Source: an uncultured Archangium sp. (lineage in GTDB: Bacteria; Myxococcota; Myxococcia; Myxococcales; Myxococcaceae). Taken from it: 64,000 nucleotides of DNA. Positions 8,114 through 30,430 of the stretch are shown piece by piece. Each line of letters starts with the position of its first letter. The first letter of the stretch is position 1. The stretch spans positions 1 through 64,000 of the forward strand of contig CAIVGN010000047.1 of the NCBI GenBank assembly GCA_903905455.1. The letters run 5' to 3'. A program made the position numbers and the translations under genes. The notes beneath the pieces are model-generated. The model was not told the origin of the DNA. It was given only the letters and a program-made list of their open reading frames with translations, and made no database searches.

Positions 8114-8638
8114 TCAGTCGTAGTGAATGAGACCGTGGCCGAGCGACGGCGTGCGCCCGGCGATGAAGTCAGTGAGGAACTGCCACAGCGCGTCGGCCGG
8201 CGGAGGGCAGCCCGGCAGCGAGTAGTCGATGCGCACCACGTCGTTGATGGGGTGCACGTGATCGAGCGGCAGCGGCAACTCGGGATCGTTGGGCACCGTG
8301 CGGTACACGCTCGTCAGGCACTCGCGCACGTCGAGGTGATTGCGCTGCGCGGGCAGCCCGCCGTTGATGGCGCAGGCCCCCACCGCCACCAGCACCTTGC
8401 ACTGCTTGCGGAACTCGCGGAGCACGTGGACGTTCTCCGCGTTGCACAGCCCGCCCTCCACCAGCCCCAGGTCGCAGGGACCGCAGTGCTTGATGTCCGT
8501 CAGCGGCGAACGATCGAGTTCCACCAGCTCGAGCAGCTTCAAGATGCGCTCGTCGATGTCGAGCAGCGACATGTGGCACCCGAAGCACCCCGCCAGCGAG
8601 GTGGTGGCCACCTTCAGCTTCCGTTTCGGCGCGCTCAC
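8114..8638 (-). CDS. hoxY: NAD-linked [NiFe]-hydrogenase small subunit
   Basis: A 174-residue HoxY small subunit, short because it keeps only the proximal [4Fe-4S] cluster domain. Cluster ligands are visible in SLAGCFGCHMSLLD (Cys18 and Cys21 from the GTG start), VAVGACAINGG and YSLPGCPPPADAL; HCGPCDLGLVEGG lies between. There is no Tat signal, which agrees with a cytoplasmic enzyme. The start is GTG 8638-8636, forming a GTGA overlap with the end of hoxU. A longer in-frame version would run back over hoxU and is only frame shadow. It passes electrons between the NiFe site in HoxH and the diaphorase half HoxFU. Confidence 0.93.
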   Translation of the reverse strand: MSAPKRKLKVATTSLAGCFGCHMSLLDIDERILKLLELVELDRSPLTDIKHCGPCDLGLVEGGLCNAENVHVLREFRKQCKVLVAVGACAINGGLPAQRNHLDVRECLTSVYRTVPNDPELPLPLDHVHPINDVVRIDYSLPGCPPPADALWQFLTDFIAGRTPSLGHGLIHYD

Positions 8639-9339
8639 GGCTTCTTCCCCTCGGGCATCGCGCTGATCGGCGCCGCGTCGTAGGTGCGTTGACCGATGGG
8701 CACGCGAAAGCCGCGGCCCTTCTTCAAGATGACGCCCACCGGGCACACCGAGACGGCCGTGTCGGTGGCCGCGATCGACGTGTCGGCCAGGCGCCCCGAC
8801 TCGGAGTTGACGATGAGGTGCTTGTCGATGCCTCGCCCCGAGAGCGCGAAGACGTGGCGCCCGTCGACCTCGGCCGAGGCCCGCACGCACAGCTCGCAGA
8901 GGATGCAGCGGTTGAAGTCGAGCATCAGGTCGGGGTGCGAGGCGTCCACCGGCCGGTCGGGGAAGAGCTGCGTGAAGTGCAGCGTCTTGACCTCCAGCTC
9001 GTAGCCCAGCGCCTGCAGCTTGCAGTCGCCGCTCTTCTCGCACGAGGGGCAGAAGTGGTTGCCCTCGACGAAGAGCAACTGCACCAGCTCGCGCCGCAGC
9101 TCTCGCAGCTCCGCCGTCTGGTTCTCGACCACCAGCCCTTCCCTGGCGGCCAGGGTGCACGACGCGGCGTGGCGGCCGTTGACCTTCACCGTGCACACCC
9201 GGCAGCTCCCGTGGGGCTTGAACTCGGGGTGCGCGCAGAGGTGCGGGACGTAGACCCCATCGGCGAGCGCCGCCTGCATCACCGTCTGTCCCTCGACGAA
9301 GGGGATCTCGCGCTCGTCCATCGTGAAGGTCTTGCTCAT
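8635..9339 (-). CDS. hoxU: Hydrogenase diaphorase subunit HoxU (NuoG-like ferredoxin domain)
   Basis: A 234-residue protein resembling the N-terminal part of NuoG. A plant-type [2Fe-2S] domain comes first, with cysteines in YVPHLCAHPEFKPHGSCRVC and a later SCTLAAREG. A His/Cys cluster motif follows in GNHFCPSCEKSGDCKLQ, then the ferredoxin-like pair of [4Fe-4S] motifs, with CILCELCVRA and SVCPVG segments. It wires the FMN site of HoxF to the hydrogenase module. Its ATG overlaps the stop of hoxF (9336-9339) and its stop overlaps the GTG of hoxY, so the diaphorase and hydrogenase parts are made from tightly coupled cistrons. Confidence 0.94.
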   Translation of the reverse strand: MSKTFTMDEREIPFVEGQTVMQAALADGVYVPHLCAHPEFKPHGSCRVCTVKVNGRHAASCTLAAREGLVVENQTAELRELRRELVQLLFVEGNHFCPSCEKSGDCKLQALGYELEVKTLHFTQLFPDRPVDASHPDLMLDFNRCILCELCVRASAEVDGRHVFALSGRGIDKHLIVNSESGRLADTSIAATDTAVSVCPVGVILKKGRGFRVPIGQRTYDAAPISAMPEGKKP

Positions 9340-11114
9340 GTGTCCTCCAGGTGGGCCTGCCCGTCGTCGCGCCCGGTCACTTCGCGCGCCGGGGCCAGGG
9401 CCTCGTCGAGATCGAAGGTGGGCAGGAACTCGAGCGACGACAGCCGCCGGTCGATGGTGGGCTTGAACTTCTCGTGCAGCGCCAGGAAGTGCGCGCAGGC
9501 GGTGTGGCCCAGGGCGCAGTGGCTCGTGTCGCGCATCAACACCGCCAGCCGCAGCGCCACCTTCACGTCGCGCCGGGTTCCCCGCTCGGCGGCGATGGCG
9601 TCGATGGACTTCTTGAGCAGCGTCGTGCCCACCCGGCAGGGGGTGCAGAAGCCGCAGCTCTCGTGGGCGAAGAAGTGCGCGAAGTTCACCGAGACGTCGA
9701 GCAGGTCACGGGTCTCTCCGAAGATGGTGAAGGCGCCCGCGGTGGCCACGTCTTCGAAGGCCAGCTTGCGGCGGAACTCGGCAGGCCCCAGCAACGTGCC
9801 CGAAGGCCCGCTGACCTGCACCGCCTGGGCGTTCTTCGCGCCGCACGCGTCGAGCAGTTCCTGCACCGTCAGGCCCATGGGGAACTCGTAGACGCCCGGC
9901 CGCGCGCAATCGCCGGACACCGAGTGCACCCGCGTGCCCGGCGACTTCGCGGTGCCGTGCTTCGCAAACCACGCCCCGCCATTCACGGTGACCAGCGCCG
10001 CGGCGACGAGCGTCTCGACGTTGTTCACCACCGTGGGCTGGCCGAGGTAGCCGTGGGTCACCGGGTACGGGGGCCGGCTGCGGGGAATGCCGCGCTTGCC
10101 TTCTAGCGACTCGATGAGGGCCGACTCCTCGCCGCAGACGTACGAGCCCGCGCCGAGGTGCAGCTCGACCTCGAAGTCGAAGCCCCGGTGGCCGAGCACG
10201 TCACGACCCAGCAGGTGCGCCTTGCGCCGGGCCGCGAGCGCCGCCTCGATGGGCGCCTGCAGGAAGAGGTACTCGCCGCGCAGGTAGATGAAGCCCTTCT
10301 GCGCCCCGATGGCGAAGCCGCACACCGTCATGCCGTCGAGCACCAGGTCGAGGTAGCGGCTGAGCAGCACGCGGTCCTTGAAGGTGCCCGGCTCGCCCTC
10401 GTCGGCGTTGCAAACCACGAAGCGCGTCGGACCCGGCGCCAGCTTCGCCGCGCGCCACTTCTCGCCGGTGGTGAAGCCCGCGCCACCGCGGCCCCGCAAC
10501 CCAGAGCGCAGCAACTCCTCGAGCGTCGCGTCAGCGCCCCGCGCGAACGCAGCGCGCAGCGCCTCGCCCGGCCGCAGCGAGGAGCTGAGGATGAGGTCCT
10601 TGCGGTGAATGACGTCGTCGATGCGGAACAACTCCGGCGGCCACGCCTCGACCGGGGCCTGCGCCTCGATGCACCTCGCGATGAGATCGATGCGCGCGTC
10701 GGTGAGCCGCCCGATGGCGTGCCCGTTGACCAGCAGCGCCGGCCCCTGATCGCACAACCCGGTGCAGGAAGTCACCGCGACGCTGACCCGAGCGTCGGCG
10801 CGCACCTCGCCAGGGCCCACGCCCAGCTTCGCGCAGAGCCGCTCGCGCAGGGCCACGCTGCCCAGCATGCGGTCGGTGATGTTGTCCGAGAAGAGCACCC
10901 GGTAGGCGCCCACCGGCGTGGTGGCAAAGAACGCGTAGAAGCCGGCGACTCCCTCGACGCGCGCCCGCGGGAGTCCCAACGCACCGGCCAACTCGGTGAT
11001 CCGCGTGGGTGAGATCCACCCCTCGGCCGCCTGCACCTCGCGGAGCATCTGCACCAGGCGGGTCGGATCGTGCCGATGCCGCTCGAGGAGACCCTTCACG
11101 TCGACAGCTTGCAT
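9336..11114 (-). CDS. hoxF: Hydrogenase diaphorase subunit HoxF (NuoE-NuoF fusion, NADH/FMN site)
   Basis: A 592-residue flavoprotein. Residues 1 to about 160 are a NuoE-like thioredoxin-fold domain and the rest is NuoF-like. GLRGRGGAGFTTGEKW is the NADH/FMN-binding motif; CNADEGEPGTFKDR and ESCGFCTPCRVGT follow, the latter holding the [4Fe-4S] ligands. In the NuoE part only the second cysteine pair is clear (Cys117 and Cys121 in SCTGLCDQG); where the first pair is expected the sequence reads FSDNITDRML. The fused form and operon order (F-U-Y-H-W) resemble the soluble NAD-reducing hydrogenase more than the cyanobacterial form with separate HoxE. The first gene of the operon; a GAGG sequence lies just ahead of the ATG. 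Confidence 0.94.
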   Translation of the reverse strand: MQAVDVKGLLERHRHDPTRLVQMLREVQAAEGWISPTRITELAGALGLPRARVEGVAGFYAFFATTPVGAYRVLFSDNITDRMLGSVALRERLCAKLGVGPGEVRADARVSVAVTSCTGLCDQGPALLVNGHAIGRLTDARIDLIARCIEAQAPVEAWPPELFRIDDVIHRKDLILSSSLRPGEALRAAFARGADATLEELLRSGLRGRGGAGFTTGEKWRAAKLAPGPTRFVVCNADEGEPGTFKDRVLLSRYLDLVLDGMTVCGFAIGAQKGFIYLRGEYLFLQAPIEAALAARRKAHLLGRDVLGHRGFDFEVELHLGAGSYVCGEESALIESLEGKRGIPRSRPPYPVTHGYLGQPTVVNNVETLVAAALVTVNGGAWFAKHGTAKSPGTRVHSVSGDCARPGVYEFPMGLTVQELLDACGAKNAQAVQVSGPSGTLLGPAEFRRKLAFEDVATAGAFTIFGETRDLLDVSVNFAHFFAHESCGFCTPCRVGTTLLKKSIDAIAAERGTRRDVKVALRLAVLMRDTSHCALGHTACAHFLALHEKFKPTIDRRLSSLEFLPTFDLDEALAPAREVTGRDDGQAHLEDT

Positions 11115-11231: not shown

Positions 11232-12293
11232 CTATCGCCCCGCGGTGGCCGGAGGTGAGCCCAGGAACGCGAGCACCTTCGCCCAGACCTCGTCGGCCGC
11301 GTGCTCGCCGATCACCAGGTCCATGTGCCCGTATTCGGCGCGCGCCCCGTTGGCCCGGGTCACCAGCAACCACTCCCGGGGCCCACCCAGCGCGCGGTAG
11401 CCGTCCTTCACCGCGGGGGTATAGGCCACGCGATCGAGGCGCCCGGCGACGACCATCACCGGGGTGGTGATCTTCGCCATGTCGGCGCGCAGGTCGATTG
11501 ACCCGTCGCCCGACAAGAAGCGCCCTGACTCCATCAACGAGATGAGCTGCAGCGCCGTGCCCCCCGCCACGTCGGCCGTGCCGTAGACCATCAGCCGTCG
11601 CCAGGCCTCGGGATCGGTGCCCAGCGGGTTGTAGAACATGCGCTCGAAGAAGCCGTCGGCGACCGCGTCGTTCACCGGGGCCACGAGGGCCGCTCCGAAG
11701 CGCACGGGGATCATCCACTTCTGCGTGACCAGCTTCGGGCCCAGCGTCGTCATGACCGCCTCCATGCCGGTGCCCCAATCGAGGCGCGTGGGGCTCCCGA
11801 GCGTCGCCGCCGCATGAAGCCCCTGCCCACCCTGCGAGAGGTACGCGTAGACCACCATGCCGCCCATGGAGTGGCCCACGTAGTCGAGGGCCGCCGCGCC
11901 GCTGACCCGCTGCACGTAGGCGATCACCGAGGGCAGATCGTGGCGCCAGTAGTCATCGAAGGAGATCGGCGTCGCCCGGCCCCGGTCCACGTCGGGCCCG
12001 TCGCTGTGGCCGGTGCCTCGCAGCGACATCGTCCACGCCTCCCGGCCCTGCGACGCGAACCAGCGCGCCATCGAGTGCTGGGCATCGAGATCCATGTTCC
12101 GATCGTTGGCCCCGATGCCGTGGCACAGGACGATCGGCGGCCCTTTGGCTTCGCCCACCGCCCGGTACCGCACCAGCGAGATCTCCCAGCCGTCGTCCGT
12201 GCGCGCGCGGTGGAGCTCGGCCTCCTTCGGCAGCGGCACGACCTGCCACGAGGCACAGCCCGTGAGCGCGAGGGCCAGCAGACAAGCTCTCAC
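11232..12293 (-). CDS. Alpha/beta-hydrolase-fold lipoprotein
   Basis: A 353-residue exported hydrolase. The N-terminus MRACLLALALTGCASW is a lipoprotein signal peptide with the lipobox LTGC. The alpha/beta-hydrolase core includes PIVLCHGIGANDRNMDL (oxyanion region), the nucleophile elbow YVGHSMGGMVVYAY (GHSMG), and an acid/histidine end with VMVVAGRLDRVAYTP and EYGHMDLVIGE. It probably hydrolyses an ester or lipid at the cell envelope; the substrate is unknown. The start overlaps the stop of the upstream hydrolase-like gene (12290-12293), so the two should be produced together. The hox operon begins 117 bases downstream on the same strand; I see no terminator in between, so some read-through is possible. 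Confidence 0.85.
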   Translation of the reverse strand: MRACLLALALTGCASWQVVPLPKEAELHRARTDDGWEISLVRYRAVGEAKGPPIVLCHGIGANDRNMDLDAQHSMARWFASQGREAWTMSLRGTGHSDGPDVDRGRATPISFDDYWRHDLPSVIAYVQRVSGAAALDYVGHSMGGMVVYAYLSQGGQGLHAAATLGSPTRLDWGTGMEAVMTTLGPKLVTQKWMIPVRFGAALVAPVNDAVADGFFERMFYNPLGTDPEAWRRLMVYGTADVAGGTALQLISLMESGRFLSGDGSIDLRADMAKITTPVMVVAGRLDRVAYTPAVKDGYRALGGPREWLLVTRANGARAEYGHMDLVIGEHAADEVWAKVLAFLGSPPATAGR

Positions 12294-13225
12294 TGGAGGA
12301 ACCGCTCGATCTCCGGGAAGACGAACCGGGGCGCGCGCTCGCCGGTGAGCAGCGACACGTGCGCGAAGTCATCGCCCTCGAGGGTGCGGCTGAACAGGTG
12401 CAGCGTGACCTTGCCCCGCGCGAGCTCACGCAACGGGGTGCAGCTCTCGGCTGGCGCCCAGCCGTCGGCGAGCCCCAGGAGCACCAGCGTCGGACGATCG
12501 TACTGGCGCAACCGCGACCGCACGCTCGTGCCGTCATCCAGCGGGAGATCTCCCAGCGCCATCCACGACGACAGCTCGGCCGCCACCGGGCGGGACAGGT
12601 CGCGGGACGCGTTCGCCATGAAGCCCGCGGTCACCCGACGGTCGACGCGCGCGCCCATCGAGAAGAGCTGCTCGAACGCGCCAAACCCCTCGGGGGACGA
12701 CGCGAGCGACGAGAACCGGCCGCCCCCTGACAGGAACCACGCCGCCAACAGCGTCGGCGCTTCGGGCTGGACAGGAGTGTTCAGGGCAATCACCCGGCGC
12801 ACGTGGAGTTCCCGGGTGGTGGCCGCCAGCGCCAGCGTGCCCACGTAGCCATGCGCCACGAGATCGATCTCGCCGGGACGCTCGGCCGCGATGGCCTGCG
12901 CGATGGCTGGCAGATCGAGCGCCACCACCGTCCGCAACGAGTGCCCCGCATCGGCCGTCCCCTGCCCTCGCAGCTCGGCCACGTACACCGCGCGCCCTTT
13001 CGCCGCGAGGAAGCGCGCCAGGCCGCCTCCCGCGAAGTCGAACAGCCCGCGACCAAAGCCCGCGTCGGAGATCAGCAGCACCGGCGGTGCACCGAGCCCC
13101 CCACCCGGAGGCAGGTAGCGATGCAGCGCGAGCGCCGCGCCGTCGAGGGTCGTCACCTTGCGATGCGAGACGCGCACCTCGGCCGGCGCGGAGAGGACCA
13201 GCAGCGCCAGCGCCACGGAGATCAC
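12290..13225 (-). CDS. Alpha/beta-hydrolase-like secreted protein lacking the nucleophile serine
   Basis: A 311-residue protein starting at GTG 13225-13223, with a hydrophobic N-terminal segment ending near LSAPAEV that looks like a Sec signal peptide. The fold is recognisable: PPVLLISDAGFGRGLFD, then VYVAELRGQG, then the elbow strand DLVAHGYVGTLAL, and later PTLVLLGLADGWAP and DDFAHVSLL for acid and histidine. At the elbow, where an active enzyme has GxSxG, this protein has HGYVG, so the usual nucleophile is missing. It may be a non-catalytic partner of the intact hydrolase encoded directly downstream, with which it overlaps by 4 bases. Its own start overlaps the response-regulator stop. It shares no near-identical stretches with its neighbour, so recent duplication is unlikely. 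Confidence 0.72.
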   Translation of the reverse strand: MISVALALLVLSAPAEVRVSHRKVTTLDGAALALHRYLPPGGGLGAPPVLLISDAGFGRGLFDFAGGGLARFLAAKGRAVYVAELRGQGTADAGHSLRTVVALDLPAIAQAIAAERPGEIDLVAHGYVGTLALAATTRELHVRRVIALNTPVQPEAPTLLAAWFLSGGGRFSSLASSPEGFGAFEQLFSMGARVDRRVTAGFMANASRDLSRPVAAELSSWMALGDLPLDDGTSVRSRLRQYDRPTLVLLGLADGWAPAESCTPLRELARGKVTLHLFSRTLEGDDFAHVSLLTGERAPRFVFPEIERFLQ

Positions 13226-13884
13226 AGCTCGACGATCCCCGCCTTGAGCGCCAACACCACCGCGTCGACGTGCGAGTTGACGCCCATCTTCTTGTAGACG
13301 TGGGACAGGTGCGTGCGCACGGTGCGCCGCTCGAGCTCCATCACCCGGCCCACCTCGGCGTTCGAGAGCCCCTTGGCGACGAACTTGAGCACGTCGAACT
13401 CGGTCGGCGAGAGCCCCCACGGGTTGTCGGGCTGTTCCTTCTTCGCCTGCAGCGAGTGGAAGTAGTTCCAGAAGCGCCGCGCGATGATCGCCTCGAGCAC
13501 CGTGCCGCCGCTCATCACGTCGTGAATGCCGGAGCGGATCTTGTCGGGGCCCACGCGCTTGACGAGGTACCCCGAGGCGCCCGCCTGCATCGCCTCGTAG
13601 ACCTTCTGCTCGTTGTCGAAGGAGGTGAGGATCAGCACCTCCACCGTCGGGGCGCGCCGCTTGAGCCGCTTGGTCACCTCGATGCCGTCGATGCCCGGGA
13701 GTTCGAGATCGAGCAGCACGAGGTCGGGCACCAGCTTCACCATCTGCTCGACGCCGTCTTCGCCCTCTTGCGCCGTGCCGACGATCTCCAGCTCCGGGAA
13801 CAGCGCGAGCACCTTGAGCAGGTTCTTGAGCAACTGCGGCTGGTCCTCGACGATGAAGACCCTGACCTTCTCGAGTTCGCTCAT
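13222..13884 (-). CDS. NarL/LuxR-type response regulator
   Basis: A 220-residue two-domain regulator. The receiver starts VRVFIVEDQPQLLKN with its acidic pocket. It has the phospho-acceptor aspartate in DLVLLDLELPGIDG, the switch threonine in LILTSFD, and the conserved lysine in SGYLVKRVG. The C-terminal LuxR-type helix-turn-helix runs through LSPTEFDVLKFVAKGLSNAE to VRTHLSHVYKKMGV. It should bind DNA when phosphorylated. No histidine kinase is next to it. Instead the ATG (13884-13882) overlaps the stop of a membrane pseudokinase gene, and its stop overlaps the GTG of the hydrolase-like gene. Longer in-frame versions would cover the pseudokinase frame and are rejected. Confidence 0.9.
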   Translation of the reverse strand: MSELEKVRVFIVEDQPQLLKNLLKVLALFPELEIVGTAQEGEDGVEQMVKLVPDLVLLDLELPGIDGIEVTKRLKRRAPTVEVLILTSFDNEQKVYEAMQAGASGYLVKRVGPDKIRSGIHDVMSGGTVLEAIIARRFWNYFHSLQAKKEQPDNPWGLSPTEFDVLKFVAKGLSNAEVGRVMELERRTVRTHLSHVYKKMGVNSHVDAVVLALKAGIVEL

Positions 13885-15851
13885 CGCTTCTGGAACATCG
13901 GTGAGAGTTTCACGGTCTTGCCGGCCTCGAACCGGGTGGTCGACGACGAATCCTGCTTCGACTTCGGCTCGGTGATGGTCACCTTGTGCGACCCGGCCGC
14001 CACGGGGAGCTTCGTCGCCGCCACGCACACGCGCTTGCCGTCGATCTCCACCCGCACGCCGATCGGCGACTCGACGGTGAGGAACCCGGTCTTCCCTTTC
14101 GGCACCTCGTAACAATCCGCCGGCACCTTCTTCACCACCGGTGGGTCCTTCTTCGGGGGCTCGACCGGCGGCTTCGGCTGGGGGTCCGTCGTCGGGGTCG
14201 CCGTCGGGTTGGGGTTGAAGGCCTTGTCGGGGTGGAGCTTGTCGAAGTCCTTGAGCTTGAGGGAGATCGCCCCTTCCTTCGAGGGCGTCAGCTCTTTCTT
14301 CGTCGCCCCGAACTCGCGCTGGATCGGCTCCGGGAGGTACCCGATGAGCGTGGCCCTCGGGTCCGGCGTCGAGCGCAGGAACGCGTAGATCGCCCCGGTG
14401 ATGGTGCCGAACAGCACCACCGTCGCGAGGAAGCTGACCACGCGCACCTGCTTGGCGCTGCGCTTGTGCATCTCGGCGTACGACGGCACCGAGGGGTCAC
14501 CTTCGCGCTTGAAGGGCACCGCGAAGGTCATCAGCGTCTTGGCCACCCGCTGCCGGGGGCTCGCCTTCGGAGCCGCCTTCGGCTGGCCGGGGATCTCCGC
14601 GAAGTCTTCGACCACGCGCACGCGGTTCTTCAGCGGATCGCCGCCCTGTGGCTGAGGCGTGGGGCCGGCCTGCGACGCGGTCATCGGCGCCAGGGCTCCC
14701 GGAGGCGCGTCCCACTCGGTGACCGCGCGCTTCACCACGGCCTGCACCTCGGGCAACGTCTTGACCTCTTCTCGCGATGAGACGAACACCGGGGCCGGCA
14801 CGGACCCAGGCTCCGGGTCACCGGTGAAGACGGGCAGCCCGTCGCTGGTGGGCGTGCGCTCGTTGACCTCGCCACCGGAGAACGAGGGGCGATCGTCGAC
14901 GTCGACGGCGTCGGCCTCCACCGAGCCCACGCCGCTGACGTCGGTCAGCTCGAAGGGGCGTTCGATGGGCACCGGGCCCGTGGCCGAGACCTGCACCTCG
15001 TTGGGGAACAGCTCGCCCACGAACTTCTGGAGATCTTCGCGCGGGGGAATGCCGCCGCTGGCAGACAGGAAGTCGCGCAGCCCCTCGGCGAAGTCGGCGC
15101 ACGACTTGTAGCGACGCGCCGGCGACGTCTCGAGGGCCCGCATGATCACCGGGTCGATGCGCGAATGCAGCCGGCGCACCAGCCGCGACGGGGGCGGCAG
15201 CCGCTCCGAACGCGTGCTCACCGTCGAGTTCCCGGTCGACGCCTCGCGCAGGGTGAGGACCTCGTAGGCGATGGCCCCGAGCGCGTAGAGATCGCTGGCC
15301 ACGGTCGGCGTGTCCCCGGCCCCCAGCTCCGGCGCGCGGTAGCTGCTGCGCCCCCTCGCCCCGAAGCTCTTCTTGAGCGCGGCGCAGGCCTGGAGTGCCA
15401 TCAGCGCCCCGAAGTCGGTGACCGACACGCGGCCGTCGGCGCCCAGCAAGATGTTGCCCGGGGTCAGCGCGCCGTGCACCACGCCCGCCGCGTGGGCCGC
15501 GCTGACCACGTCGAGCAGCTCGAGGGTCAGCGTCAGGGCCAGGGCCGGGGGCCGGTGCACCTCCCGCGTGTTGAGGCGCTGCAGCGCGAGGCCCAGGGTG
15601 TACTTGCCGGTGTCCTGGCGCACGATGGCCAGTCGCCCGTCGATCATCCCCACGTCGAGCACCCGGGCCACGCCGGGGTGCGTCACCGACTGGAGCTGCC
15701 GGGAGACCTCGCCCACCGACTTCGCGTAGGTCGCATCCGAGGTCTTGAGGTGGAACAGCTTGAGGACGACCGATTCCTGCGCTTCGACGCGCTCACCTCG
15801 GAAGAGGTCGGCCAGCTGGCTTTGCTCGAGTCGCCCGGTCAGCCGATACAC
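13881..15851 (-). CDS. Membrane Ser/Thr pseudokinase with C-terminal PEGA-like domain
   Basis: A 656-residue protein. Residues 1 to about 280 have a Hanks-type kinase fold: the ATP lysine is at 31 (VVLKLF), DFG is at 146-148, and RAPELG and SDLYALGAIAYEVLTL follow. The catalytic-loop HRD is HGA (residues 126-128, in VVHGALTPGNILL), so the proton-accepting aspartate is lost, and no glycine-rich loop is visible. A Pro/Asp-rich linker follows, then one membrane helix (VVSFLATVVLFGTITGAIYA). The outer segment ends with TVESPIGVRVEIDGKRVCV and VAAGSHKVTI, typical of a PEGA domain that may touch the cell wall. It overlaps the response-regulator gene, so a regulatory partnership is likely (inference). 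The start is close to the window's next gene upstream. Confidence 0.85.
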   Translation of the reverse strand: MYRLTGRLEQSQLADLFRGERVEAQESVVLKLFHLKTSDATYAKSVGEVSRQLQSVTHPGVARVLDVGMIDGRLAIVRQDTGKYTLGLALQRLNTREVHRPPALALTLTLELLDVVSAAHAAGVVHGALTPGNILLGADGRVSVTDFGALMALQACAALKKSFGARGRSSYRAPELGAGDTPTVASDLYALGAIAYEVLTLREASTGNSTVSTRSERLPPPSRLVRRLHSRIDPVIMRALETSPARRYKSCADFAEGLRDFLSASGGIPPREDLQKFVGELFPNEVQVSATGPVPIERPFELTDVSGVGSVEADAVDVDDRPSFSGGEVNERTPTSDGLPVFTGDPEPGSVPAPVFVSSREEVKTLPEVQAVVKRAVTEWDAPPGALAPMTASQAGPTPQPQGGDPLKNRVRVVEDFAEIPGQPKAAPKASPRQRVAKTLMTFAVPFKREGDPSVPSYAEMHKRSAKQVRVVSFLATVVLFGTITGAIYAFLRSTPDPRATLIGYLPEPIQREFGATKKELTPSKEGAISLKLKDFDKLHPDKAFNPNPTATPTTDPQPKPPVEPPKKDPPVVKKVPADCYEVPKGKTGFLTVESPIGVRVEIDGKRVCVAATKLPVAAGSHKVTITEPKSKQDSSSTTRFEAGKTVKLSPMFQKR

Positions 15852-15869: not shown

Positions 15870-16142
15870 TCACCGCGCGCGGCGGGGCCGAAACGGGGCC
15901 ACCGCGTCGAAGCTGAAGCCGCAGTAGACGCAAGTGCGATCTCGCCTCCCCTTGGGCACCTCGGCAAAACAGCCGGGGCACCGGGGTCGCTGGGGCCCCT
16001 TGGGGACCGGGGTGGGCTTCACTTTCGCGGCCAGGGCGACCTTCTTGAGCTGCTGCTCGAGCCTGCGCACGCGCGCCTCCAGCTCGGCGACCCGCACCCT
16101 GATTTCCCGCTGCGCATCGTCGTTGCTGCGACGGGAAGCCAT
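15870..16142 (-). CDS. Small coiled-coil / zinc-ribbon protein
   Basis: A 90-residue protein. Residues 10-40 form an amphipathic, charged helix (VRVAELEARVRRLEQQLKKV) likely to make a coiled coil. The C-terminal part has two CxxC knuckles, CPGC and CVYC, spaced about 15 residues apart and ending in CGFSFDA, as in zinc ribbons. The ends are rich in Arg and Lys, which would suit nucleic-acid or ribosome binding, but that is a guess. It lies 18 bases upstream of the pseudokinase gene on the same strand and may head that operon. I do not recognise a named family. Confidence 0.7.
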   Translation of the reverse strand: MASRRSNDDAQREIRVRVAELEARVRRLEQQLKKVALAAKVKPTPVPKGPQRPRCPGCFAEVPKGRRDRTCVYCGFSFDAVAPFRPRRAR

Positions 16143-16185
16143 CGTGGGTAGAAATGTCGCACGCGGTGTCCGCGAAAGGAAAAAC

Positions 16186-17835
16186 TTGGATTCGATTCAC
16201 GGCAGCATCGTCGGCCCCACCGATCGGCTTCGCGTGCAGGAGATGGAGTCGCGCGCCGACCAGGTCCTCGGCGACGAAGATCTCCAGCGCATCTTGAAGC
16301 AGCCGCCCCAGAGCGAGACGCCCATCCCGCGGCAGATTTTCGTCAACCGCAACCTGCACATGGGCAAGGTCGAGCTGATCGGCTTCGACATGGACTACAC
16401 GCTGGCGATCTACCACCTGCGTCGCCTCGAGCAGCTCTCGTACGATCTCACCGTCGACCGCCTCGTCACCACCTTCGGCTACCCCGAGGAGATCCGCCAG
16501 GTCGCCTACGATCACGCCTTCGTGCTCCGCGGGCTCTTCGTGGACAAGGTGCGCGGCAACCTGCTGAAGATCGATCGTTTCGGCTACGTGGGCCGCGCCT
16601 ACCACGGCCGCAAGCTGCTCCCCGACGAGGACATCCAGCGGCTCTACCGCAACGAGCGCATTCGCATGAAGAGCCACGAGTACGCGTGGATCGACACCCT
16701 CTTCGCCCTGCCCGAGGCCTGCCTGCTGGCCGGCATCATCGATCTCTACGAGACGAAGCTGAACCTCACGCTCAACTTCACGAAGCTCTACGACGACATC
16801 CGCGAGGCCATCGACACCGTCCACCGCGACAACTCGCTCAAGAAGATCATCCGCGCCGACATCGGCCGCTACATCTTCAAGGACGAGGAACTGGGGCCCG
16901 CGCTCCACAAGCTGCGCTCCGGCGGCAAGAAGCTCTTCGTGCTCACCAACTCGCTGTGGGACTACACCAGCGCGGTGATGTCCTACCTGCTCGACGGCGT
17001 GCTCCCCGAGTACCCGAGCTGGAAGAACTACTTCGACTTCATCATCACCGGCGGCAGCAAGCCGGGCTTCTTCAGCGACCAGAAGCCCTTCCTGCTGGTC
17101 GACCCGGCCAGCGAAGACAACAAGGTGCTGGGCGAGGCCACCGAGCTCGAGCGCGGCAAGATCTACCAGGGCGGCAACCTCGCCGACTTCGAGCGCATGA
17201 CCGGGTACAAGGGCGAGGCCGTGCTCTACGTCGGCGATCACATCTACGGCGACATCTTGAAGTCGAAGAAGACGTCCATGTGGCGCACCTGCATGATCGT
17301 CCAGGAGATCGAAGACGAGCTCGCCTACCTCGAGGCCCGCCGTGGCGAGGTCGAGCGGCTGCAAGACGTCGAGCAACTGCAGGCCCGCATCGACGACGAG
17401 ATCGCCCCCCGCAAGGCCAAGCTCAACCAGATCGAGCGGCGCATCGAAAAAGAGCACCCCACCCCCGAGCTCACCGCCGAGCTGGAGGAGGAGTTCAAGA
17501 AGGTGAAGGCCGACCTCGACCGGCTCCGCCGCGCCATGCGCGAGTGCACGGAGATCGCCCACACCCTCGAGACCGACATCGAGAAGGGCTTCAACCCGTT
17601 CTGGGGCCTCCACTTCAAGGAAGGGAACGAAAACTCGCGCTTCGGGGAGCAGATCGAGCAGTACGCCTGCCTCTACACCTCGCGCGTGTCGAACTTCGTC
17701 TTCTACTCGCCGCTCCACTACTACCGGAGCATGCGCGAGCTGATGCCGCACGAGAGCGCCACCGCCTTCCGGCTCGCCGCGCTCGGTGGCGAAGGCCTGC
17801 CCAAGGGCACCAACCGCGCCGCCGACATTCCCTAG
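16186..17835 (+). CDS. HAD-superfamily cytosolic 5'-nucleotidase (HAD-IG family)
   Basis: A protein of about 549 residues in the HAD-IG purine 5'-nucleotidase family. The nucleophile motif is IGFDMDYTLAIYHLRRLEQL; motif II is VLTNSLWDYTSAVM and motif III/IV includes VLYVGDHIYGDILKSKK. It should remove phosphate from purine nucleoside monophosphates in the cytoplasm. The C-terminal third contains a long charged helix (around LEARRGEVERLQDVEQLQAR) that likely forms a coiled coil. The start is uncertain: TTG 16186 has a good AAAGGA at 16175-16180, while GTG 16234 and ATG 16243 are in frame but lack one. Its TAG overlaps the convergent stop of the methyltransferase gene at 17832-17835. Confidence 0.87.
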   Translation: MDSIHGSIVGPTDRLRVQEMESRADQVLGDEDLQRILKQPPQSETPIPRQIFVNRNLHMGKVELIGFDMDYTLAIYHLRRLEQLSYDLTVDRLVTTFGYPEEIRQVAYDHAFVLRGLFVDKVRGNLLKIDRFGYVGRAYHGRKLLPDEDIQRLYRNERIRMKSHEYAWIDTLFALPEACLLAGIIDLYETKLNLTLNFTKLYDDIREAIDTVHRDNSLKKIIRADIGRYIFKDEELGPALHKLRSGGKKLFVLTNSLWDYTSAVMSYLLDGVLPEYPSWKNYFDFIITGGSKPGFFSDQKPFLLVDPASEDNKVLGEATELERGKIYQGGNLADFERMTGYKGEAVLYVGDHIYGDILKSKKTSMWRTCMIVQEIEDELAYLEARRGEVERLQDVEQLQARIDDEIAPRKAKLNQIERRIEKEHPTPELTAELEEEFKKVKADLDRLRRAMRECTEIAHTLETDIEKGFNPFWGLHFKEGNENSRFGEQIEQYACLYTSRVSNFVFYSPLHYYRSMRELMPHESATAFRLAALGGEGLPKGTNRAADIP

Positions 17836-28216: not shown

Positions 28217-30385
28217 TCAACGACGGTCGTAGGTCGTCTTCCAGTAGCCCGTGCCCTCGCGGCAATACACCGCGGCCCAGTCAGCCTTGAATTGTGGGTC
28301 CGAGGCCCGCGGGTCCGAGCGGAACGCGGTGAACGGCAGCTTCAGCTCCTCGTTGGCCAGGAGCGTCCGCGTGCCCAGCCGGGTGACCACGTTGCTGGGC
28401 AGGCGCACCTCGCAGTTGCTGAGGCTGAACTGGTTCTGGTTGCGCAGCACCACCTGTCGCCGGCCCGTGGAGTTGGGCACCGAGAGCTGCACCGAGCCGA
28501 AGAGCTGCGTCACCGCGGGCCTCGCCGGCTCCACCGGCCGCACGGGCTCGACGGCCTTCACCGGCTCCACCACCTTGACGGGCTCGGGGTCGGCCACCCG
28601 CGCAGGGTCTGCCACCTTCGCCACCGGGGTCCTCGGCGCCACGGCCACCGGGGTCGCCTTCTTCGCCGCGACGTCCTTCGCCGCGTAGACCTTCTCCGGG
28701 AGCTTGGCGTCTTCGTCGAAGATCAGCGTGGCCAGCGAGCCCTTGACGCCCATCACCGCGGCGTGGCCGTACACCGGCCGCTGGCCGTCGGCCCCGGGCT
28801 CGCCCACCAGGTTGAAGCGATCGCCCTCGGACACCTTGTCCTTCTTCTCGAGGAGCATCAGGTCTTCGCCATCCTTGCGGAGCACCTTCCACACCTTGCC
28901 GTCGATGGTGAGGTGATCGATGACCACGGGCTCGGCGACCTTCACCGGCTCCGGGTCGGGAGCCTTCTGAGGCTCGGGGTCCTGGGCCGGCTCCTTCACG
29001 GGCGCGGGCTCGGGATCCCTCACGGCGGCCACCACGGGCTCCTTCTTCGGAGCCGGGTCGTCCTTCGGGCCCAGGATGAACGCCGCGCCGCCGGCGAGCG
29101 CGATGAAGGCGAGCAGCCCGACGATGATCAACGGGGTCCGGCTCTTCGGCGCGGCGATGGCCTCCGGCAGGTCGTCTTCCGGGGGCGGCAGCGCGGCCAC
29201 CGACTTCGCCTTCGGGGCCAGCGACTTCGCGCGCGGGGGCGGCGCGGCTTCCGGCGGCGCGGGCTGCGCCACCGACATCGCGCGCTGCGCCGCGGTCATC
29301 GCCTGGCCCGAGGCGGTCTGCTTCGGGGGCTGCGCCGACTGCGAGGGCCGCATGAAGGTCCCCTCGAACTCGGGCTCCTCCGCCGGGGCCGCCTCGGCCA
29401 CGCCCTTGCGGCGCATCAGCGAGAGCTTCGACTGCAGCTGCCGCTCGGCCGCGAACTCCTCGGGGCACATGGCGCGCACGTAGTTGCCCACGTCTTCGGC
29501 GCCGACCGTCAGTTGCTCGCGCACCGCCAGCTCGTTGAGCGCGCGGGCGAAGTCGTCGGCGCGCTGGTACCGGGCCGAGGGCTCCTTGGCGAGCGCCCGC
29601 ATCACGATCTGGTCGAGCATCGGCGAGATGTCCGGCCGCACCGAGATCAGCGACGGCACCTCGGCCACCGCCATCTGGGCCACCATCTCGCTCATCGTGC
29701 CGCCCGCGTACATCGACCGGCCGGCGAGCATCTCCCACACCACGATGCCCGACGAGAAGATGTCCGAGCGGTGATCGACCTGCTTGGCCAGCGCCTGCTC
29801 CGGCGACATGTAGCCCAGCTTGCCCATCACCGTGGAAGGCAGGGTCTGCTTCGAGCGCGCCGTGCTCTTGGCGAGGCCGAAGTCGATCACCTTCACCTCG
29901 CCCTCGTACGAGACCATCACGTTCTGCGGCGAGACGTCGCGGTGCACGATGCCCAGGGGCATGCCGTCGGCGCCCACCTTGCGGTGCGCGTAGCCCAGCG
30001 CCTCGTTCATCTTCTGGGCAATGAACACCGCCATGGCGATGGGCATCACCGCGCGCTGCCGCTCGACCCGCGTCTCCACCCGCGAGAGATCGACGCCCGG
30101 CACGTACTCGATGGCCATGTACAGCACGCCATCGGTCTCCCCCATGTCGTAGACCTGCGCGATGCTCGAGTGCGTCAACTGCACCAGCACCCGGGCCTCG
30201 TGGTGGAAGCGATCGATGAAGTTCGGGTCGCCCATCAGGTTCGGCAGCACCGTCTTGACGATGCACAGCTTCTCGAACCCCGCCGCCCCGGTGAGGCGCG
30301 CCAGGTGCACCTCCCCCATGCCCCCCTGCCCGAGCATGAACAGGAGCTGGTACCGGCCCAGCATCCGACCTTCTTGGTTCGTCAT
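28217..30385 (-). CDS. Membrane Ser/Thr protein kinase with Pro-rich linker and novel C-terminal domain
   Basis: A 722-residue Hanks-type kinase. The kinase domain (residues 1 to about 280) is complete: GQGGMGEVHLA loop, VKTV lysine, IVHRDVSPQNVMV catalytic loop, VIDFGLAKS, and GYMSPEQA. One membrane helix (TPLIIVGLLAFIALAGGAAF) follows a long Pro/Ala linker. Outside lies an acidic PEP/PVK-rich stretch with repeated VEPV units, an SH3-like region (WKVLRKDGEDLMLLEKKDK) and a C-terminal beta-rich segment ending near the stop that I do not recognise. Such kinases are abundant in myxobacteria and phosphorylate regulators in response to external cues. ATG 30385 was preferred to GTG 30394. Confidence 0.92.
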   Translation of the reverse strand: MTNQEGRMLGRYQLLFMLGQGGMGEVHLARLTGAAGFEKLCIVKTVLPNLMGDPNFIDRFHHEARVLVQLTHSSIAQVYDMGETDGVLYMAIEYVPGVDLSRVETRVERQRAVMPIAMAVFIAQKMNEALGYAHRKVGADGMPLGIVHRDVSPQNVMVSYEGEVKVIDFGLAKSTARSKQTLPSTVMGKLGYMSPEQALAKQVDHRSDIFSSGIVVWEMLAGRSMYAGGTMSEMVAQMAVAEVPSLISVRPDISPMLDQIVMRALAKEPSARYQRADDFARALNELAVREQLTVGAEDVGNYVRAMCPEEFAAERQLQSKLSLMRRKGVAEAAPAEEPEFEGTFMRPSQSAQPPKQTASGQAMTAAQRAMSVAQPAPPEAAPPPRAKSLAPKAKSVAALPPPEDDLPEAIAAPKSRTPLIIVGLLAFIALAGGAAFILGPKDDPAPKKEPVVAAVRDPEPAPVKEPAQDPEPQKAPDPEPVKVAEPVVIDHLTIDGKVWKVLRKDGEDLMLLEKKDKVSEGDRFNLVGEPGADGQRPVYGHAAVMGVKGSLATLIFDEDAKLPEKVYAAKDVAAKKATPVAVAPRTPVAKVADPARVADPEPVKVVEPVKAVEPVRPVEPARPAVTQLFGSVQLSVPNSTGRRQVVLRNQNQFSLSNCEVRLPSNVVTRLGTRTLLANEELKLPFTAFRSDPRASDPQFKADWAAVYCREGTGYWKTTYDRR

Positions 30386-30430
30386 CGCGGGCACTCTACC
30401 GATTGGCTGTCGACAGGCATGGTTTCGGTC

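Follow-up and report, generated by a model that had tools for sequence, protein, structure and literature searches.

The window analysed here is a stretch of 64,000 nucleotides from an uncultured Archangium sp. of the Myxococcota (assembly GCA_903905455.1, contig CAIVGN010000047.1, positions 1 to 64,000), and the subject of this work is a pair of adjacent genes on its reverse strand, which encode a kinase-fold membrane protein (PK) and a response regulator (RR). All positions are window coordinates and the features are collected in Table 1. The first-pass annotation had described the pair as a membrane pseudokinase translationally coupled to a NarL-type regulator, and the coordinates and reading frames that it gave are confirmed on the sequence. 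An annotation or frameshift artefact is ruled out, as both frames are open and conserved. The residues of PK that are conserved in relatives begin directly after its GTG start codon. The protein consists of a kinase fold, a disordered juxtamembrane linker, one transmembrane helix and a PEGA-like C-terminal domain, and most genomes of the family carry a single close ortholog of it.

The Ser/Thr (Hanks-type) kinase fold of PK is recognized by the Pfam profile Pkinase (E 2.5e-15), and in the PDB the kinase part is closest to PknA of Mycobacterium tuberculosis (4ow8, E 6.3e-14), with PknB matched as well. Matches of PK to the PADLOC system PD-T4-6 are generic kinase-domain matches only. The beta-3 lysine K31 and the DFG motif are retained, the HRD motif is replaced by HGA and the glycine-rich loop is degraded (GRLEQSQLADLF), its GxGxxG glycines not being conserved among the aligned relatives; PK thus lacks both the HRD aspartate and the glycine-rich loop that characterize active Ser/Thr kinases, just as the earlier annotation had claimed. 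The single membrane helix that it predicted is found again as a hydropathy peak and in the AlphaFold model, which was built from 24 relatives; in it a kinase fold modelled with confidence is followed by a disordered linker (residues ~320-450), one long helix (458-494) and a small beta domain (588-650). The naming of the outer domain as PEGA-like fared less well. A PEGA-style V-x-I-D-G ... G-x-R pattern is conserved there and the small beta domain is modeled, but the Pfam PEGA score of PK, 18.7 bits, stays below the cut-off of 20.8, and a match at E 0.01 appears in only 3 of 24 relatives, so that PK does not qualify as a PEGA protein by that cut-off. When the C-terminal domain was searched by sequence against the PDB, no match was significant, and its sole near match there, the RtkS-PpkA complex (9k1u), is weak (E 0.0044) and serves as a lead only.

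The downstream gene encodes a NarL/FixJ-type regulator with matches to Response_reg (E 8.7e-27), GerE (E 4.2e-16) and the NarL structure 1a04 (E 3.4e-35). Its phospho-acceptor site is complete (E13, D14, D59, T87 and K109) and its start overlaps the stop of PK, both as previously noted. In most relatives the RR start lies -4 to +8 nt from the PK stop, and in some early-branching loci the distance is 18-115 nt. The claim that no histidine kinase is nearby stands too: none of the 150 HATPase_c matches listed for the genome is on this contig (C47, 82.7 kb), 19 weaker candidates lying beyond those listed. By the matches listed, the regulator is not encoded together with a cognate histidine kinase, and it is PK that occupies the upstream position. 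RR is probably not FruA, an atypical orphan regulator of myxobacteria for which phosphorylation at the conserved aspartate is effectively ruled out (PMC12632262), since the receiver of RR is complete; this was judged without a comparison to the FruA sequence.

Table 1. Features of the PK-RR locus and its neighbours in window coordinates.
Feature	Position	Strand	Basis or remark
PK, membrane Ser/Thr pseudokinase, 656 residues	13881..15851	-	GTG start; Pfam, AlphaFold model
Kinase-fold domain of PK, residues 1-275	15027..15851	-	Pfam Pkinase; AlphaFold confidence (pLDDT) mostly ~90; PDB match PknA 4ow8
Beta-3 lysine K31	15759..15761	-	kept in 58/58 close relatives
H126-G127-A128 replacing HRD, catalytic Asp lost	15468..15476	-	alignments of relatives
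DFG, residues 146-148	15408..15416	-	Asp in 54/58 close relatives
Single transmembrane helix, residues 474-492	14376..14432	-	hydropathy peak 2.02
PEGA-like beta domain, residues 588-650, presumably periplasmic	13902..14090	-	sub-threshold Pfam PEGA; conserved motif; model
ATGA overlap (4 nt), PK TGA / RR ATG	13881..13884	-	sequence
RR, NarL/FixJ-type response regulator, 220 residues	13222..13884	-	Pfam; NarL structure match
RR receiver	about 13531-13860	-	Pfam Response_reg
RR helix-turn-helix domain	about 13249-13413	-	Pfam GerE
ZnR, 90-residue coiled-coil/zinc-ribbon protein	15870..16142	-	upstream of PK, 18-nt gap; conserved beside PK
ABH1, exported alpha/beta-hydrolase-fold protein without nucleophile Ser	12290..13225	-	weak Abhydrolase_1; GTG overlaps RR stop
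ABH2, lipoprotein alpha/beta-hydrolase	11232..12293	-	start overlaps ABH1 stop; intact GHSMGG elbow
Divergent cytosolic 5'-nucleotidase-like HAD gene beyond ZnR	16186..17835	+	Pfam 5_nucleotid E 2.4e-159; start codon uncertain

The loss of the catalytic aspartate is shared by the relatives of PK. When 58 close orthologs were compared by alignment, position 128 was occupied by Ala in 57, by Ser in one and by Asp in none, while the beta-3 lysine was kept in all 58, the loop asparagine (N133) in 57 and the DFG aspartate in 54; K31, H126 and A128 are all invariant in a 29-row alignment. The ratio of nonsynonymous to synonymous substitution rates (dN/dS) in the kinase domain is 0.03-0.23 for close pairs, and by this measure the domain is under purifying selection. 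Loss of catalysis by chance or drift is ruled out by these ratios together with the absence of the aspartate from 58/58 orthologs (57 of them with Ala). Loci outside the close family were found by a search with an RR profile. In 12 of those fetched, all from Myxococcota (f9, f10 and f11 and one degenerate f1 genome, G006), a kinase-fold gene still lies upstream of RR, and the catalytic aspartate is present in none of the 12. The lysine and DFG are mostly gone from these distant proteins, DFG being degraded also in some order-level relatives, and the three f9/f11 proteins that were examined over their full length all keep the linker, the hydrophobic segment and the PEGA-like C-terminus. In G006 (locus L137) the protein cannot be aligned over the activation segment and a portion of the C-lobe, which are apparently deleted, and RR still follows. 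A PK-type ancestor with an intact HRD beside RR was not found among the relatives examined. Judging from these alignments, the catalytic loss is fixed and old.

One could argue that PK retains an unusual catalytic activity and uses it to modify RR, be it phosphorylation without the aspartate, AMPylation or some other transfer of the sort known from certain pseudokinases. The lysine, asparagine and DFG aspartate conserved in the close family make binding of MgATP plausible there. However, the replacement of Asp by Ala is fixed and the glycine loop is degraded. Additionally, catalysis cannot be the common function, because the distant proteins lose the lysine and DFG as well while the pairing with RR persists. 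We regard this explanation as unlikely.

Adjacency of PK and RR alone is weak evidence for a functional relation, because 13 pairs of kinase and receiver genes within 3 kb of each other, PK-RR included, were counted in this genome; the strong part is the conservation of the pair. RR is found immediately downstream of PK in 56 of 56 close loci, the other two stopping at a contig edge, and it adjoins PK in all 12 distant loci examined. The five phospho-site residues are invariant in all 56 paired close loci. PK is present in loci L120, L122, L126 and L127. A PK without RR was not found among the loci examined; G105 was rejected as such a case, since RR is present there with its frame broken by a frameshift in the assembly. 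The survey of genomes that the first-pass annotation had proposed shows the motif and the pairing recurring in 58 close and 12 distant relatives, which is not chance. In f9 and f11 the junction stays tight, and the nucleotidase and usually the other neighbours too are undetected near the pair. The pairing is maintained across most of a bacterial phylum, the myxobacteria and their relatives, and this suggests that PK acts on RR by binding it and not by phosphorylating it.

The reverse situation, RR without PK, does occur. In G013 and G026 ZnR is followed directly by RR, in G024 and G156 only the nucleotidase and RR are found, and in order-level f7 loci RR adjoins the nucleotidase with PK absent, so the linkage between nucleotidase and RR persists in several lineages that have no PK. 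All aligned RRs of this kind retain the five phospho-site residues. The absence in G013, G026, G024 and G156 represents loss of PK, because these genomes branch within the PK-bearing clade of the RR tree, where the forks are open; the number of losses would be at least two, and probably three. With RR retained in several lineages that lack PK, and no PK found that lacks RR, RR is the core of the system and PK is the accessory. The idea that a dead kinase and a regulator form one signalling unit has thus survived as a conserved unit, but the statement that the kinase controls the regulator has to be weakened to modulation of a regulator that is phosphorylated by something else. The identity of the PK-less RRs falls below the value predicted from the nucleotidase by 4.6, 11.2, 11.9 and 14.4 points (residual standard deviation 1.5 over 45 PK-bearing loci), and this extra divergence fits a lost partner or constraint, which is suggestive only. 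Q15, N21, K94 and Q100 are candidate positions of an interface that the PK-less lineages would have lost.

These loci also bear on the notion that PK and RR belong to separate pathways and are co-transcribed merely through conservation of the operon as a block. ZnR, the nucleotidase, PK and RR do form a conserved block through the family, and RR can be retained where PK is gone. On the other hand, none of the loci examined holds PK without RR, the two genes stay tightly joined in f9 and f11 with the nucleotidase and, as a rule, the other neighbours undetected nearby, and RR is more diverged where PK has been lost. We consider separate pathways improbable.

The RR tree offers an indication of the origin of the regulator. 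The RRs linked to PK or to the nucleotidase form a clade of 48 with SH-aLRT support of 100, and around that clade the upstream gene, where detected, encodes a HisKA_3 histidine kinase. A sister pair of a HisKA_3 histidine kinase and a NarL-type regulator is present in this genome (G000:C115:53851-55173) and has relatives throughout the phylum. The simplest reading of the tree is that a HisKA_3-type regulator was later paired with a Ser/Thr pseudokinase. In the alignment the receivers of RR and of the sister-pair regulator are still alike in alpha-1, and for this reason the histidine kinase of the sister pair is a plausible candidate phosphodonor for RR.

We put the chances at about even that PK and RR form a dedicated pair for signalling, with PK acting as a membrane-bound non-catalytic receptor for RR. 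In such a pair a histidine kinase encoded elsewhere would phosphorylate D59 of RR, and the leading candidate for it is the paralogous HisKA_3 kinase at G000:C115, whose partner lies in the sister group of RR. The kinase-fold domain of PK would bind RR or its phosphorylated form at the inner membrane, and the PEGA-like periplasmic domain would be the input, its sensing deciding between release and stabilisation of RR by PK. A nucleotide bound via the retained lysine, asparagine and DFG may set the conformation of PK in the lineages that keep these residues. RR would then control transcription, probably of its own operon and of the divergent nucleotidase gene. A wider proposition, which we hold tentatively and with rather less than even confidence, is that across most of the phylum RR has swapped its histidine-kinase partner for a Ser/Thr-pseudokinase receptor, the signal passing by binding alone and the phosphate coming from a separate kinase.

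Several points weigh against the receptor reading. The binding of RR by PK is a step that we infer, and a common ligand, an output gene or a cognate histidine kinase was not identified in the analysis. The kinase pocket of the f11 and f9 proteins is too degraded for nucleotide gating to be general. The RR tree comes from a quick search and contains many unresolved forks. The argument from constraint is limited as well: the residual of -4.6 at L134 lies within the PK-bearing range (minimum -4.7), the genomes G024 and G156 are small and fast-evolving, and the PK-less lineages are few.

Pseudokinases often work allosterically, and about 130 kinase-domain matches reveal a large kinome in this genome. 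It could be that PK is a scaffold or regulator that recruits RR to an active Ser/Thr kinase, by which RR is phosphorylated on Ser or Thr. Response regulators are indeed known to be phosphorylated by Ser/Thr kinases (PMC6213207). However, the relatives showed no active kinase in linkage with the locus and the aspartate phospho-site of RR is complete, and we give this explanation little credence. It could also be argued that RR is in practice independent of phosphorylation and that PK is an anti-activator which sequesters it, since atypical orphan regulators such as FruA exist in myxobacteria (PMC12632262). In contrast to pseudo-receivers, RR has invariant phospho-site residues, the PK-less genomes included, which makes such sequestration very improbable.

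Among the known systems, the NarL/LiaR-type two-component systems with HisKA_3 kinases are arranged as PK-RR is, in that the gene of a membrane sensor immediately precedes that of a NarL-type regulator, and the nearest sisters of RR occur in such pairs (e.g., G000:C115). PK in the sensor position differs in having the fold of a Ser/Thr pseudokinase, which is without HisKA and HATPase_c and is unable to pass a phosphoryl group on to aspartate. The role proposed for PK resembles that of DivL from Caulobacter, a dead kinase that acts in a membrane signalling context by binding a response regulator; however, DivL is a degenerate histidine kinase and not a Ser/Thr-kinase fold, and it binds DivK~P and controls the activation of CtrA (PMC4211667). 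The PknS-EcfK and EcfP (ECF43) pairs likewise join the gene of a Hanks kinase that spans the membrane and has a periplasmic domain to that of a single transcription regulator, but PknS is an active enzyme with a sigma factor as its substrate, whereas PK is dead and its partner is a response regulator (PMC13147305). Loss of catalytic residues from the Ser/Thr-kinase fold is also described for ActPs1-3 (MviN), GLW, CP1, DYD, DLHK and EssB/YukC, several of these families being membrane proteins with a C-terminal transmembrane segment (PMC12599244). By these descriptions the PK family is set apart, as it keeps the lysine and DFG and has Ala fixed at the catalytic aspartate, and that review describes neither a response regulator nor a PEGA domain nor a family from myxobacteria; according to it, bacterial pseudokinases are largely unexplored by experiment.

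Pseudokinases make up 11 of the 99 Ser/Thr kinases of M. xanthus (PMC6791715, citing Perez 2008). They are of the same phylum and kind as PK, the accessible text does not describe any of them as paired with a response regulator, and an M. xanthus ortholog of PK, if present, is likely among these 11. A pair of a pseudokinase and a response regulator of the PK-RR kind was not found in the open-access full-text literature, which agrees with the earlier statement that no described system has this form. Myxobacterial pseudokinases are already known, and the pairing of a Ser/Thr pseudokinase with a response regulator is undescribed in that literature; the exchange of partners is the more novel reading. 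Myxobacteria possess many Ser/Thr pseudokinases that have no known job, and PK has a single, conserved and genetically linked partner. As the DNA binding of RR is an easily assayed output, the role of a bacterial pseudokinase becomes directly testable. If PK does gate RR, Hanks kinases and two-component systems would be joined without phosphotransfer between them.

The operon extends beyond what had been described at first, with two hydrolases downstream and the Zn-ribbon gene, which has no Pfam match, upstream. The nucleophile serine of ABH1 is absent in 19/19 relatives, with glycine in its place (elbows HGYVG, HGWAG and QGFIG), and the GHSMGG elbow of ABH2 is kept in 18/18 orthologs examined. 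Export of both proteins is predicted from their N-termini by eye (signal peptide, lipobox). The two genes follow RR in some members of the family, and they do so once more in an f2 genome. With ABH1 lacking its nucleophile and PK its catalytic aspartate, the operon therefore holds two pseudoenzymes in the taxa that bear ABH1-ABH2. ABH1 is a conserved pseudo-hydrolase and may bind a ligand in the periplasm as a partner to the PEGA-like domain.

Scans for promoters and terminators gave nothing beyond chance. The gap between ZnR and the nucleotidase (16143-16300 in the window) contains repeated boxes in relatives (L041, L044, L046, L049, L056, L112, L134 and L136), e.g., AGCGTGCCACGC and GCGTGTTAT, which are a candidate promoter or RR site; in the window itself these boxes are unclear. 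One 8-mer of this gap occurs in 21 of 43 sequences against a shuffle maximum of 12, with the kinship of the sequences uncontrolled. In two close relatives (L036 and L037) an insert of ~3.5 kb separates ZnR from PK. Directly downstream of the operon (8635-11114, reverse strand) hoxU- and hoxEF-like genes of a bidirectional hydrogenase were recognized by eye; the regions retrieved around the orthologs did not show them. Elsewhere in the window (28217-30394, reverse strand) lies a canonical Ser/Thr kinase with HRD and DFG intact.

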